Assembly: GCA_021730785.1 (NCBI GenBank) | Contig: JAKFWF010000022.1 | Location: 1 to 64,000, forward strand | Origin: Hyphomicrobiaceae bacterium | GTDB lineage: Bacteria > Pseudomonadota > Alphaproteobacteria > Rhizobiales > Hyphomicrobiaceae | Length of the DNA stretch: 64,000 nucleotides | Reading direction: 5' to 3' | Part shown: positions 54,714 through 59,163 of the stretch, piece after piece | Layout: every line of letters starts with the position of its first letter | How positions within the stretch are numbered: the stretch's first letter is position 1 | Made by a program: the position numbers and the translations under genes | The notes under the pieces: generated by a model | Databases searched by the model: none | Seen by the model: only the letters and a program-made list of their open reading frames with translations | Told to the model about the DNA's origin: nothing

Positions 54714-54952
54714 GGGCTGCGAGCGATGCCGAGTTTGTTTGCCAAGCGGTCGAATACGATGTCGACCGGATCACCCTCATCACGATCAGCCTCGGCAATC
54801 GATCGCTCGAGTTGGGCGCGCTGCTCGGCCGACATGGTGTCATAAAACGAGGTGCGGACGGCGCGCTCATATAGCTGCTCAGCCAGTTCCCGTCGCTCGC
54901 CCACTGGTAGGGTCTGAAACAATTCGATGATCTGCGCCTGTGTTCGGGTCAT
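54710..54952 (-). CDS. Antitoxin of a ParE/RelE-type module
   Basis: An 80-residue acidic, helical protein (MTRTQAQIIELFQTLPVGERRELAEQLYERA) of the addiction-module antitoxin type. It is encoded just upstream of, and overlapping, the toxin frame by 4 bases. With the toxin interrupted it may now be an orphan. The start at 54952 is chosen because the frame upstream lacks antitoxin-like sequence. Confidence 0.72.
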   Translation of the reverse strand: MTRTQAQIIELFQTLPVGERRELAEQLYERAVRTSFYDTMSAEQRAQLERSIAEADRDEGDPVDIVFDRLANKLGIARSP

Positions 54953-55022
54953 GGCAAATGGTACCCTAGAATTGCTCCCCGGGTCATCTGCCAGCAAGCA
55001 GGCCACCTGGTTTCATAAAAAT

Positions 55023-55053
55023 TGACACATCATGTTGTCAGGTCAGATTGACA
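55023..55053. promoter_or_regulatory. PpsR/CrtJ-type operator upstream of bchG
   Basis: TGTCAGGTCAGATTGACA (55036-55053) matches the TGT-N12-ACA consensus of PpsR/CrtJ, the redox-responsive repressor of photosynthesis genes, as a perfect TGTCA-N8-TGACA inverted repeat. A further TGACA at 55023-55027 gives three half-sites at 13-bp spacing. It overlaps the -35 box of the promoter below. Confidence 0.7.
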
Positions 55054-55075
55054 CTTATCGGATCATCGCCATAAT
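55048..55075 (+). promoter_or_regulatory. bchG promoter
   Basis: TTGACA (55048-55053), a 16-bp spacer and CATAAT (55070-55075) form a near-consensus sigma-70 promoter. The predicted start, about 55082, touches the bchG ATG at 55083, so the transcript may be leaderless. The -35 is buried in the PpsR-type palindrome. Confidence 0.65.
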
Positions 55076-55082
55076 TGGGCGC

Positions 55083-56018
55083 ATGACGAGGTCGGCCACA
55101 CCCTCTGTTCCCAACACTGCCACGGGCACCGCCACGCGCCCGCATCCAGCCGTCGTGCTCGAGCTGCTGAAGCCCGTCACCTGGTTCCCGCCCATGTGGG
55201 CGTTCGGTTGCGGCGTGGTGTCGTCGGGGCAGGCGTCGCTCGACAAATGGCACCTGATCGCTGCCGGCATCCTGCTCGCTGGACCCTTCGTGTGCGCCAT
55301 GAGCCAGGCCGTCAACGACTGGTATGACCGCCACGTCGACGCCATCAACGAGCCGAACCGGCCGATTCCGTCTGGCCGCATGCCCGGGCGCTGGGGGCTC
55401 TATGTGGCCTGCGTGTGGACCCTACTCTCGCTCGCGGTCGGTGCGATGCTCGGCACGTGGGTGTTCGGCGCAACCATCGTCGGCGTCGCACTCGCCTGGG
55501 CCTACAGCGCACCGCCATTGCGGCTGAAGGAGAACGGCTGGTGGGGCAACGCTGCCTGCGGCCTGTGCTACGAGGGGCTCGCCTGGGTGACAGGTGCAGC
55601 CGTCATGCTCGGCGGCGCGCTGCCCAACGGGCAGGTTCTGACGCTCGCTGGCCTCTATAGCCTCGGCGCCCACGGCATCATGACGCTCAACGATTTCAAG
55701 TCGATCGAGGGTGACCGGCGGATGGGCGTCAAATCCCTGCCCGTGATGCTCGGGCCGGAGCGGGCCGGTTGGGTCGCCTGCCTGTTCATGGTGGTGGCGC
55801 AGGTCGTCGTCGTTACCCTGCTGTTCGCCTGGGCACGCCCTTATCACGGTGCACTTGTTTGCGCGGCGTTGGTGGCACAAGTCTACTTCATGCGGCGCCT
55901 GCTCACTGACCCGGCCAAGCTCGCACCCTGGTACAACGCCACCGGTGTGATGATGTTCGTACTTGGCATGATGGTCAGCGCCCACGCCGTCAGCCCACTT
56001 CCCGGAGTTGCGCCATGA
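55083..56018 (+). CDS. bchG: Bacteriochlorophyll synthase (BchG/ChlG-type prenyltransferase)
   Basis: A 311-residue UbiA-superfamily membrane enzyme that attaches a C20 prenyl group to (bacterio)chlorophyllide. KPVTWFPPMWAFGCG is diagnostic of BchG/ChlG. The Asp-rich site is NDWYDRHVDAINEP, and a second motif NDFKSIEGDRRMG lies in the C-terminal half. About eight membrane helices. The ATG at 55083 gives the family's usual short N-terminus; a start at 55032 would lie inside the promoter. It overlaps the next gene by 4 bases. Confidence 0.93.
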   Translation: MTRSATPSVPNTATGTATRPHPAVVLELLKPVTWFPPMWAFGCGVVSSGQASLDKWHLIAAGILLAGPFVCAMSQAVNDWYDRHVDAINEPNRPIPSGRMPGRWGLYVACVWTLLSLAVGAMLGTWVFGATIVGVALAWAYSAPPLRLKENGWWGNAACGLCYEGLAWVTGAAVMLGGALPNGQVLTLAGLYSLGAHGIMTLNDFKSIEGDRRMGVKSLPVMLGPERAGWVACLFMVVAQVVVVTLLFAWARPYHGALVCAALVAQVYFMRRLLTDPAKLAPWYNATGVMMFVLGMMVSAHAVSPLPGVAP

Positions 56019-57409
56019 CTGAACAGGCAGCCCTGCGGCATCTCGGCTGGATCGGCATTATCCGCCTGGGGCTCGTGCAGACGTCGATCGGCGCCATCGT
56101 TGTAATGACCACTTCGACACTGAACCGCATCATGGTGGTCGAGCTGGCGTTGCCCGCCATGGTGCCGGGCGCGCTGGTGGCGCTGCACTACGCCATGCAG
56201 GCGCTACGCCCGCGCATGGGGCACGGCTCGGACCTGGGAGGGCGACGCACTCCTTGGATCATTGGCGGAGTGATCGTGCTGGCCCTCGGCGGCGTGATCG
56301 CATCTGCCGGTACCGCTTTGATGGCGGCCAGCTTCTACGCTGGTCTGCTCCTCGCGATCGTCGGGTTCATTGCCATCGGCGCCGGCGTCAGCGCGGCGGG
56401 CACCACACTACTGGTGCTGCTGACCAAGCGCACAACCGAGGCCCACCGTCCGGCCGCGGCAACGATCGTATGGCTGATGATGATCGCCGGCTTCGCGCTG
56501 ACCGGAAGCATGGCCGGGCGTATGCTCGATCCGTTCTCGCCGCTGCGGCTCGTCGGCGTGACCGCGCTGGTGTGTCTCATCGCCGTGGTCGTCACCGTTT
56601 TCGCCATCTGGGGCATCGAAGACAATACCGATGCGGTGGCCGCGACTGCGCCCGAGGGACCCAAGACGGCGTTCCGCGCCGCACTGGTCGAGACCTGGGC
56701 CGACCCCAAGGCTCGCCTGTTCACGATCTTCGTATTCGTATCGATGGTCGCCTTCAGTGCCCAGGACCTGATCCTCGAACCATTCGCCGCCATCCTGTAC
56801 AATCTAACTGTCGGGCAGACGACCGTCCTGTCGGGCCTGCAGAATCAGGGCGTGTTCGTGGGCATGACCATTGTTGCGGTAGCCGGTACCGCGATCGGCG
56901 GCCCGCGGCTCGGCTCGCTGCGGCTGTGGACCATCGCCGGATGCCTCGCCTCGGCGCTGGCGCTCGCGGGGCTCGTCGTCGCGGCATTTGCCGGCCGCAG
57001 CTGGCCGATCAACGCCAATGTCTTCCTGCTCGGCCTCGCCAATGGCGTGTATGCCAGCGCCGCCATCGCCTCGATGATGAGCCTCGCCGGCCAGGGGCGG
57101 CAATCGCGCGAGGGTGTTCGCATGGGGCTGTGGGGCGCCGCCCAAGGCATCGCCTTCGGTCTTGGAGGCTTCGCCGGGACCGCGGTCAGCGATCTCGTTC
57201 GCTACATCGTTGGTTCACAGACGCTGGCCTATGCGTCAGTGTTTGCGGCCGAAGTCACGCTGTTTGTTCTGGCAGCAGTTCTGGCAGCCCGCGTCGGCGA
57301 CGTGCGCCATGCTTCGGCGGTTCCATCGACCACTCGCGGCACGGCGATCAAGGACGGCTGGACGAGCCGGTGGACATCGACAGTTTCGGTTTCAAGAGGC
57401 AGGGCTTAG
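56015..57409 (+). CDS. PucC/Bch2-family transporter-like protein of the photosynthesis cluster
   Basis: A 464-residue major-facilitator-fold membrane protein of the BCD/PucC family, with about 12 helices. LGWIGIIRLGLVQTSIGAIVVMTTSTLNRIM and MSLAGQGRQSREGVRMGLWGAAQGIAFG are the family blocks. Members between bchG and bchP (ORF428/Bch2 type) are thought to assist pigment delivery or light-harvesting complex assembly. Start overlaps the bchG stop (ATGA). bchP follows 12 bp on. Confidence 0.9.
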   Translation: MTEQAALRHLGWIGIIRLGLVQTSIGAIVVMTTSTLNRIMVVELALPAMVPGALVALHYAMQALRPRMGHGSDLGGRRTPWIIGGVIVLALGGVIASAGTALMAASFYAGLLLAIVGFIAIGAGVSAAGTTLLVLLTKRTTEAHRPAAATIVWLMMIAGFALTGSMAGRMLDPFSPLRLVGVTALVCLIAVVVTVFAIWGIEDNTDAVAATAPEGPKTAFRAALVETWADPKARLFTIFVFVSMVAFSAQDLILEPFAAILYNLTVGQTTVLSGLQNQGVFVGMTIVAVAGTAIGGPRLGSLRLWTIAGCLASALALAGLVVAAFAGRSWPINANVFLLGLANGVYASAAIASMMSLAGQGRQSREGVRMGLWGAAQGIAFGLGGFAGTAVSDLVRYIVGSQTLAYASVFAAEVTLFVLAAVLAARVGDVRHASAVPSTTRGTAIKDGWTSRWTSTVSVSRGRA

Positions 57410-57421
57410 GGGAGCAAAGTC

Positions 57422-58642
57422 ATGAGCGCGAGCAGGCTTGAGACCTACGACGTAGTGGTGGTCGGCGGCGGCCCATCGGGTGCGACGGCAGCCGAGGATC
57501 TGGCGCGGGCCGGACGGCGCGTGCTGTTGCTTGATCGCGCCGGGCGCATCAAGCCCTGCGGCGGGGCGATCCCGCCGCGCCTGATCAAGGATTTCAAGAT
57601 CCCCGAACACCTGCTGGTCGCCAAGATCAATTCGGCGCGCATGGTGTCGCCGAGCGACCGCAAGGTCGACATCCCGATCGAGGGCGGATTCGTCGGTATG
57701 GTCGACCGCGAGGTGTTCGACGAGTTCCTGCGCGCCCGTGCGGCCGACGCTGGCGCGCACCGCCGAAGCGGCACTTTCACCCGCATCACACGCGATCACG
57801 ACGATGTGGCGATCGTGGAGTTCAAGGCCCAGATGGGCAGCGGCGACAGCGCCACCATGAGCGAGCGCCACCGCGTGCGCGCCCGCATCGTCATTGGTGC
57901 CGACGGGGCGAACTCGGCAGTTGCAAAGCAGGCGATCCCGGGCTCGGAGCTCAAGAAGCTGGTGTTTGCCTACCACGAGATCGTCAAGTCGCCGACCGAT
58001 GGCGCCAGCCGCGACTTCGACGCGAAACGCTGCGACGTGATCTACAACGGCCGGACCTCGCCGGACTTCTACGCCTGGGTGTTCCCGCACGGCGAGACGA
58101 CCAGCATCGGCACGGGCAGCGCCCACAAGGGCTTCTCGCTGCGCGATGCGGTGGGCGATTTGCGTGGGCAACTGGGCCTCAAGGATGCCGTGACCGTGCG
58201 GCGCGAGGGTGCGCCCATTCCGCTGAAGCCGCTGAAGCGCTGGGACAACGGCCGCGATGTGATCGTCGCCGGTGATGCGGCGGGCGTCGTCGCGCCATCT
58301 TCGGGTGAGGGCATCTACTATGCGATGGCAGCAGCCCGTTTCACGGCCGAAGCGGTGCACGAATGCCTCGATACCGGCAACGCGCACGCCCTCTCGCTCG
58401 CTCGCAAGCGCTTCATGAAGGCGCACGGCACCGTGTTCTGGGTGCTCGGCATGATGCAGTATTTCTGGTATGCGAACGACAAGCGCCGCGAGCGCTTCGT
58501 CTCCATGTGCGACGACAAGGACGTTCAAAAGCTGACGTTCGACGCGTACATGAACAAGGAACTGGTGCGCGCAAAGCCGATGGCCCACGTGCGCATCTTC
58601 TTCAAGGATTTGGGGCACCTGATGGGTCTCGTGAAAGCCTGA
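57422..58642 (+). CDS. bchP: Geranylgeranyl diphosphate/geranylgeranyl-bacteriochlorophyll reductase
   Basis: A 406-residue FAD-dependent reductase that saturates the geranylgeranyl tail to phytyl. The FAD site VVVGGGPSGATAAEDLARAG is at the N-terminus, and the CGGAIPPRLI and GDAAGVVAPSSGEGIYYAM blocks are the BchP/ChlP hallmark. GGGGAGC precedes the ATG. Its stop overlaps the tspO start. It works after BchG on the same pigment. Confidence 0.95.
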   Translation: MSASRLETYDVVVVGGGPSGATAAEDLARAGRRVLLLDRAGRIKPCGGAIPPRLIKDFKIPEHLLVAKINSARMVSPSDRKVDIPIEGGFVGMVDREVFDEFLRARAADAGAHRRSGTFTRITRDHDDVAIVEFKAQMGSGDSATMSERHRVRARIVIGADGANSAVAKQAIPGSELKKLVFAYHEIVKSPTDGASRDFDAKRCDVIYNGRTSPDFYAWVFPHGETTSIGTGSAHKGFSLRDAVGDLRGQLGLKDAVTVRREGAPIPLKPLKRWDNGRDVIVAGDAAGVVAPSSGEGIYYAMAAARFTAEAVHECLDTGNAHALSLARKRFMKAHGTVFWVLGMMQYFWYANDKRRERFVSMCDDKDVQKLTFDAYMNKELVRAKPMAHVRIFFKDLGHLMGLVKA

Positions 58643-59163
58643 TGGCGAACCGAACCATCCAGAATGCAGCCGGCGCCGGTGCTGCAAGCGCCACGTCGTG
58701 GGCGCCGATACTGGGCTTCATCGCCTGGGGCGTTGCGACGGGTGGCATCGGGGGTGCGCTGACCGAGATCGGTCCCTGGTACAGGGCGCTGAAAAAGCCA
58801 TCGTACCAGCCGCCGGATTGGCTGTTCGGCCCGGCCTGGACGACGATCTTCATCCTCACGGGATTGGCCGGGTTCTATGCGTGGCGGGTCGCACGCACAC
58901 CGGGCCTGCGGACCGCGATTGCCGCCGCCTTCATCGCCAACGGCGCCTTGAACATGTTCTGGAGCCTGCTGTTCTTCAAGTGGCGCCGGCCGGACTGGGC
59001 GTTGCTGGAAGTGGGCTTCCTGTGGCTGTCGATTCTCGTTTTGCTGATCGTCGTCGCCCGGCGTGTCAGGCTGTCCGGCTGGCTGGTCGCGCCTTATCTC
59101 GTCTGGGTCAGCTTTGCCAGCCTGCTGAACTGGGCAATCGTCCAGCTCAACGCGCCGTTCTGA
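58642..59163 (+). CDS. tspO: TspO/MBR-family tryptophan-rich sensory protein (CrtK-like)
   Basis: A 173-residue, five-helix membrane protein. KKPSYQPPDWLFGPAWTTIF and the NMFWSLLFFKWRRPDWALLE segment are TspO signatures. In Rhodobacter, TspO (CrtK) modulates photosynthesis-gene expression and tetrapyrrole export. Its start overlaps the bchP stop (TGATG), so it is co-translated with the pigment genes. The first 17 residues are an added Ala/Thr-rich stretch. Confidence 0.92.
   Translation: MANRTIQNAAGAGAASATSWAPILGFIAWGVATGGIGGALTEIGPWYRALKKPSYQPPDWLFGPAWTTIFILTGLAGFYAWRVARTPGLRTAIAAAFIANGALNMFWSLLFFKWRRPDWALLEVGFLWLSILVLLIVVARRVRLSGWLVAPYLVWVSFASLLNWAIVQLNAPF

Follow-up and report, generated by a model that had tools for sequence, protein, structure and literature searches.

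A probable PpsR/CrtJ-type operator at the -35 element of the bchG-pucC-bchP-tspO promoter and a predicted leaderless bchG start in a Hyphomicrobiaceae genome

The window analysed here comprises 64,000 nucleotides (contig JAKFWF010000022.1 of assembly GCA_021730785.1, a Hyphomicrobiaceae bacterium) and includes a set of photosynthesis genes that family scans place in the tightly packed order bchG-pucC-bchP-tspO (Table 1). A first-pass annotation of this DNA had proposed a bchG-bchP operon, and the scans bear this out, with pucC located between the two genes and tspO at the end. For tspO, the family-scan query began three codons upstream of the start given in Table 1, which was chosen from the open reading frame (ORF) reading. 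The operon (55083-59163) is isolated: the nearest other photosynthesis genes are about 6 kb away, and ppsR is on another contig. At about 65-77 kb of the same contig, ORFs were read by eye as crtI/crtD, crtF, bchC, bchX, bchY, bchZ and puf, while contig C17 features ORFs read by eye as bchF, bchN/B, bchH, bchL, bchM, lhaA and puhA.

Upstream of bchG, positions 55022-55053 read TTGACA CATCATG TTGTCA GGTCAGA TTGACA, i.e. TTGACA-N7-TTGTCA-N7-TTGACA. The array is composed of three half-sites, TGACA (55023-55027), TGTCA (55036-55040) and TGACA (55049-55053), at a spacing of exactly 13 bp. Both features highlighted in the first-pass annotation, the perfect TGTCA-N8-TGACA palindrome at bchG and a third half-site continuing the 13-bp phase, are thus present, and the palindrome matches TGT-N12-ACA exactly. 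The left partner of the extra half-site is missing, as only one of five bases matches at 55010 (by eye). A second full palindrome at a distance of 8-9 bp, which is known in several targets and is not required, is absent, and the array includes one extra half-site only.

Scanning of positions 54900-55200 returned a single promoter, TTGACA-16-CATAAT at 55048-55075, with 11 of 12 matches and 0.1 expected in shuffles. The -35 hexamer of this only predicted bchG promoter is shared with the right arm of the palindrome, and the earlier statement that the operator lies over the bchG -35 therefore holds. The first TTGACA (55022) was considered as an alternative -35 and rejected, as no TATAAT-like hexamer was seen by eye 16-18 bp downstream and the promoter scan found the second TTGACA only. 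The bchG start at ATG 55032, as given in the ORF list, was also rejected, since it falls within the half-site array, before the promoter; the chosen ATG is at 55083, 29 bp after the operator.

Table 1 Features of the bchG operon and its upstream region (positions in the window)
Feature	Position	Strand	Remarks
Extra half-site TTGACA	55022..55027	+	13 bp upstream of the left arm of the palindrome
PpsR/CrtJ-type operator TGTCA-N8-TGACA (TGT-N12-ACA)	55036..55053	+	Exact; positions -47 to -30, counting the A of the bchG ATG as +1
-35 hexamer TTGACA	55048..55053	+	Promoter scan; common to the right arm of the operator
-10 hexamer CATAAT	55070..55075	+	Promoter scan; spacer 16 bp
bchG, (bacterio)chlorophyll synthase	55083..56018	+	TIGR01476 356 bits, NF005742 422 bits
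pucC-type MFS gene	56015..57409	+	PF03209 306 bits; start overlaps the bchG stop
bchP, geranylgeranyl reductase	57422..58642	+	TIGR02023 512.6 bits
tspO, TspO/MBR family	58642..59163	+	PF03073 132 bits; first base shared with the end of the bchP stop

The loose form TGT-N12-ACA shows no significant excess in the window (10 against 6.8 expected, with 15 of 100 shuffles reaching 10) and, being at chance level there, was dropped as evidence on its own. The exact TGTCA-N8-TGACA has one occurrence in the window and four in the 4.34-Mb genome, compared to two for the backward pattern, which is a weak excess. When one or two mismatches were allowed, the two-arm pattern was not clearly more frequent genome-wide than its backward control (55+52 vs 47+41 rows; 18+24 vs 20+14), and single weak sites consequently prove nothing. 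The three-half-site pattern with at most three mismatches was found at four places in the genome, i.e. before bchG (no mismatch), upstream of phaZ and of dxs (one mismatch each) and at C2:196830 (three mismatches), with 0 and 1 rows in the backward control. Additionally, TGTMA-N7-TTGACA is exact at six places (bchG, bchC, crt, dxs, phaZ and contig C6), three of them pigment operons. The site on C6 (C6:34945) was set aside as a regulon member; it lies in the overlap of two ORFs, by eye an ABC-transporter ATPase and the next gene. For the one-mismatch places outside photosynthesis genes, no photosynthesis gene was recognised nearby by ORF inspection.

The first-pass annotation had remarked that no ppsR lies in the window and had suggested looking for a homologue elsewhere in the genome, the lack of which would have refuted its proposal. 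None was indeed seen among the window ORFs, and the search, which did not refute the proposal, identified, on another contig, one protein as the sole PpsR over the family cut-off (TIGR02040, 462.5 bits versus a cut-off of 275.4), with two further weak matches far below. This protein includes PAS domains (PF00989, PF08448) and a Fis-type helix-turn-helix (HTH; PF02954), and over its PAS portion it matches the PpsR structure of Rhodobacter sphaeroides (4hh2, E 7.6e-39). The HTH cysteine (Cys439 in this protein), described as the redox cysteine of the DNA-binding domain (PMC5362033), is kept in all 15 aligned PpsR sequences (this one and 14 from 13 genomes). The ppsR gene adjoins an aerR/ppaA-like gene, so classed from its two B12-binding domains and its location, and is divergent from a bchF-like ORF. 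Sites resembling the bchG operator are also present at other photosynthesis promoters of the genome, with genes named by ORF reading: TGTAAGTTTTAGTTGACA precedes bchC, TGTAAAGCAAGATTGACA is located between crt genes, bchF has two upstream sites with one mismatch each, and a further like site is present near the start of the aerR-like gene.

We compared this genome with 59 relatives, calling bchG at E below 1e-100; the other matches were distant prenyltransferases. The gene was present in 13 of the 59, and PpsR over the cut-off was found in all 13 of these; in 14 bchG-less relatives, chosen for comparison out of 46, no PpsR was found at E 1e-30. A site was counted when at most one of the ten arm bases was mismatched (TGTAA and TTACA taken as full), or when TGT/ACA was exact with at most two mismatches. 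Under this definition, a site is located upstream of bchG in each of the 13 bchG-bearing relatives, with eight featuring an exact TGT-N12-ACA and five one arm mismatch. In 11 of them, bchG is preceded on the same strand by ppsR, at a distance of 0.1-0.8 kb. Across a wider set of named genomes (the best 80 of at least 592, scanned for the operator alone and with some record names doubtful, such as MAG labels reading Klebsiella), 54 of 80 had a site within 200 bp of bchG. Sites were present in 67 of 93 bchG upstreams, compared to 27 of 1860 shuffled regions (1.5%) and 0 of 93 inside bchG. A total of 26 of the 94 bchG loci were without an operator within 200 bp, and these were examined by the geometry score only.

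Regulation of the bchG operon by PpsR is already known, and in this respect the operator is an ordinary addition to the regulon in one more genome. In R. sphaeroides, bchG-pucC-bchP showed 7.8-fold PpsR enrichment in ChIP-seq and an approximately 8-fold expression change upon ppsR deletion (PMC4344238). The operon order and the TGT-N12-ACA motif, TGTAAGGATAGATTGACACT in that species, are shared with the present locus (PMC4344238), whereas the perfect TGTCA/TGACA palindrome, the upstream in-phase half-site and the terminal tspO set our locus, known from its sequence, apart from the R. sphaeroides operon. In Rhodobacter capsulatus bchC, where the transcription start is mapped, CrtJ palindromes extend from -47 to -30 over the -35 and from -21 to -4 over the -10 (PMC5362033). 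Counted from the A of the ATG as +1, our operator occupies the same position as the upper palindrome, but bchC has a full second palindrome over the -10, in place of which the present locus has a single half-site on the upstream side (PMC5362033). Neighbouring TGT-N12-ACA sites are also known from Rubrivivax gelatinosus, where PpsR sites are separated by 8- and 9-bp gaps and binding is redox-dependent only at the 9-bp gap (PMC4452267). The 13-bp half-site phase corresponds to the known 8-bp gap between paired palindromes, as for CrtJ at R. capsulatus bchC (PMC5362033) and PpsR at R. gelatinosus crtI; in R. gelatinosus, however, the sites are palindrome pairs, and the crtI pair is degenerate (PMC4452267). 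Since redox dependence was limited to the 9-bp gap in that study, the 8-bp phase at bchG need not imply redox-sensitive binding.

The first-pass annotation described the operator accurately, and the distance between operator and start codon went beyond its remarks. With any operator of a locus allowed, an in-frame ATG follows 27-31 bp after the operator in 63 of 68 loci, compared to a mean of 0.21 per distance elsewhere; of the remaining loci, two have an ATG only at 1-5 bp and three have neither (L086, with GTG at 29, L139 and L150). When only the best operator of each locus was considered, 58 of the 68 loci, the window among them, had an in-frame ATG at 26-32 bp, and 31 had one at exactly 29 bp. 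When the 46 non-redundant loci among these 58 were aligned on the ATG, TTGACA emerged around -35 (22 to 38 of 46 per position), together with T at -12 (25/46), A at -11 (35/46), T at -7 (35/46) and C at -1 (36/46), and Shine-Dalgarno-like words were present in only two of the 46 (L109 and L125). Of 94 bchG genes, 42 show a strict leaderless geometry (at least five of six -35 bases and TAnnnT), against none of the 312 other genes predicted in these loci.

As a held-out set, we examined plasmid records in which the ATG start is annotated, namely the 10 of 18 matched records that covered at least 80% of the query. All ten loci fit one of two registers. Two had the operator 29-30 bp before the ATG, over the -35, while in the other eight, all from Rhodobacterales, it was located 1-3 bp before the ATG, over the -10 (-35 and -10 assigned by eye). 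The placement of the operator is thus not fixed to the -35. The two registers equal or nearly equal the positions of the two R. capsulatus bchC palindromes, if the A of the ATG is taken as +1. The Rhodobacterales plasmid loci are L261-L267 and L269, of which L261, L263 and L269 feature a second operator ending 36-37 bp before the ATG.

At the present locus, the spacing of the -35 and -10 hexamers puts the predicted start at the first base of ATG 55083, with an AUG start codon and no Shine-Dalgarno sequence. Together, the operator-ATG register and the promoter geometry make a leaderless bchG mRNA the simplest reading. We consider it likely that bchG is leaderless in phototrophic alpha-, beta- and gammaproteobacteria, with operator, promoter and start codon locked into one compact module and the palindrome located at -47/-30, or at about -20/-3 in Rhodobacterales. 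Leaderless transcripts are well documented in Sinorhizobium meliloti, for which 171 leaderless starts were mapped by RNA-seq (PMC3616915). As in those mRNAs, the bchG transcript would begin at the A of the AUG and have no room for a Shine-Dalgarno sequence; the difference is that the S. meliloti starts were mapped in one species, while here one gene is predicted to be leaderless across three classes, in connection with a repressor operator (PMC3616915). No report of leaderless bchG was found among the matches listed for the open-access PMC literature. What is new in this analysis is the fixed operator-ATG register and the leaderless start that it predicts. The fixed distance matters more than the operator itself, since a core pigment gene is thereby predicted to have a leaderless mRNA in all three classes. 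If true, this would link an unusual form of translation start to the redox and light control of transcription and offer a natural system for exploring why leaderless starts persist.

The operator, the promoter geometry and the PpsR of the genome are directly observed in the sequences, as is the recurrence of each of them in other genomes. Considering these, we find it very likely that a PpsR/CrtJ operator is built into the -35 of the bchG-pucC-bchP-tspO promoter and that bchG has a leaderless start upon derepression, and the palindrome is almost certainly a PpsR landing site. The earlier proposal of direct PpsR-type repression is supported by the PpsR of the genome, by the sites in all 13 relatives and by the ChIP-seq target in R. 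sphaeroides (PMC4344238). From this we infer how PpsR would bind and repress, where transcription would start, how the genes would be coupled and what the third half-site would do, as follows. Active PpsR, which by analogy with relatives would mean oxidising conditions or lack of the antirepressor, would bind the palindrome from -47 to -30, cover the -35 and thereby block RNA polymerase. The in-phase third half-site may allow a PpsR tetramer or octamer to hold additional upstream DNA. When PpsR is relieved, transcription would initiate at the A of the bchG ATG and the leaderless mRNA would be translated without a Shine-Dalgarno sequence, with pucC, bchP and tspO following, probably by translational coupling. 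If this is true, the final enzyme of bacteriochlorophyll synthesis and the genes coupled to it would be licensed for leaderless translation directly by release of the repressor.

Several other explanations were weighed against this reading. That the palindrome arose by coincidence around a strong -35 hexamer is hardly credible: TGACA is part of the -35 consensus and one arm therefore comes free, but the conservation described above contradicts coincidence, as sites are found before most bchG genes, rarely in shuffled upstreams and never inside the gene. It is quite possible, though not the reading that we prefer, that the extra half-site at 55022-55027 is a chance TTGACA without function. In the phase profile of 54 non-redundant bchG operators (window excluded), TGWCA is present at +26 in 20 and at -13 in three, with a mean of 0.2 and a maximum of three at other offsets. 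The upstream half-site of the window thus belongs to the minority side, whose count does not exceed the highest count at unrelated offsets, and the missing left partner of a second palindrome points in the same direction. Against chance, the same phase is strongly favoured on the downstream side, the upstream layout recurs in L097, L143 and L147, and the dxs and phaZ arrays have three or more phased half-sites. Further, PpsR assembles into tetramers and octamers (PMC3949515), so that additional half-sites are plausible contacts, and we regard the upstream in-phase half-site as a plausible PpsR contact. With regard to the start, the distance to the ATG could instead reflect a short 5' untranslated region, or transcription could begin farther upstream and meet PpsR as a roadblock. 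Read-through would be possible in the 11 of 13 relatives in which bchG follows ppsR in the same orientation after about 0.1-0.8 kb. We nevertheless find a non-leaderless bchG unlikely, because the -35, the -10 and the C(-1)A(+1) bases fit a start at the ATG, Shine-Dalgarno-like words are nearly absent from the aligned loci and the strict geometry was seen in none of the 312 other predicted genes. In addition, a start at the ATG puts the operator at the same -47/-30 position as in R. capsulatus bchC, where the start is mapped (PMC5362033).

The remaining alternative is that another regulator recognises 13-bp-phased TTGWCA repeats before bchG, dxs and phaZ, with PpsR merely being present in the genome. 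In this regard, the best 13-bp arrays are located before bchG, dxs and phaZ and not before bchC or bchF. Located about 50-100 bp upstream of the only dxs found in the genome, the dxs array (C39:24779-24822, L135) consists of four TGWCA half-sites that keep the 13-bp phase exactly, with a fifth half-site 2 bp out of phase. The phaZ array (C12:42565-42597, L136) has three half-sites in 13-bp phase approximately 70 bp upstream of this PHB depolymerase gene (TIGR01849, 611 bits). Among dxs loci (30 of 31 matches), a site was present in 4 of 17 phototrophs, two of the four being weak, and in 0 of 13 non-phototrophs, while the phaZ site was not conserved, being found in 1 of 15 phototrophs and 1 of 15 non-phototrophs (30 of 44 matches). 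As the arrays are not generally conserved, they leave room for another regulator. Against this stand the site before bchG in all 13 PpsR-bearing relatives, the resemblance of the core to the bchC and crt sites of the same genome, and the orthologous operon of R. sphaeroides, which is a proven PpsR target (PMC4344238). We therefore regard a different regulator at bchG as very improbable and retain PpsR as the repressor that would act there.

With PpsR as the predicted regulator of bchG, the arrays before dxs and phaZ may extend its regulon. Control of dxs by PpsR seems somewhat more probable than its absence, and the organism may in that case have put its isoprenoid supply under the photosynthesis repressor. 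Control of phaZ is doubtful, and phaZ as a conserved PpsR target is unsupported by the comparison of phaZ loci. The weaker array with three mismatches (C2:196830-196861, L012) is located between genes that by eye resemble exopolysaccharide glycosyltransferases.
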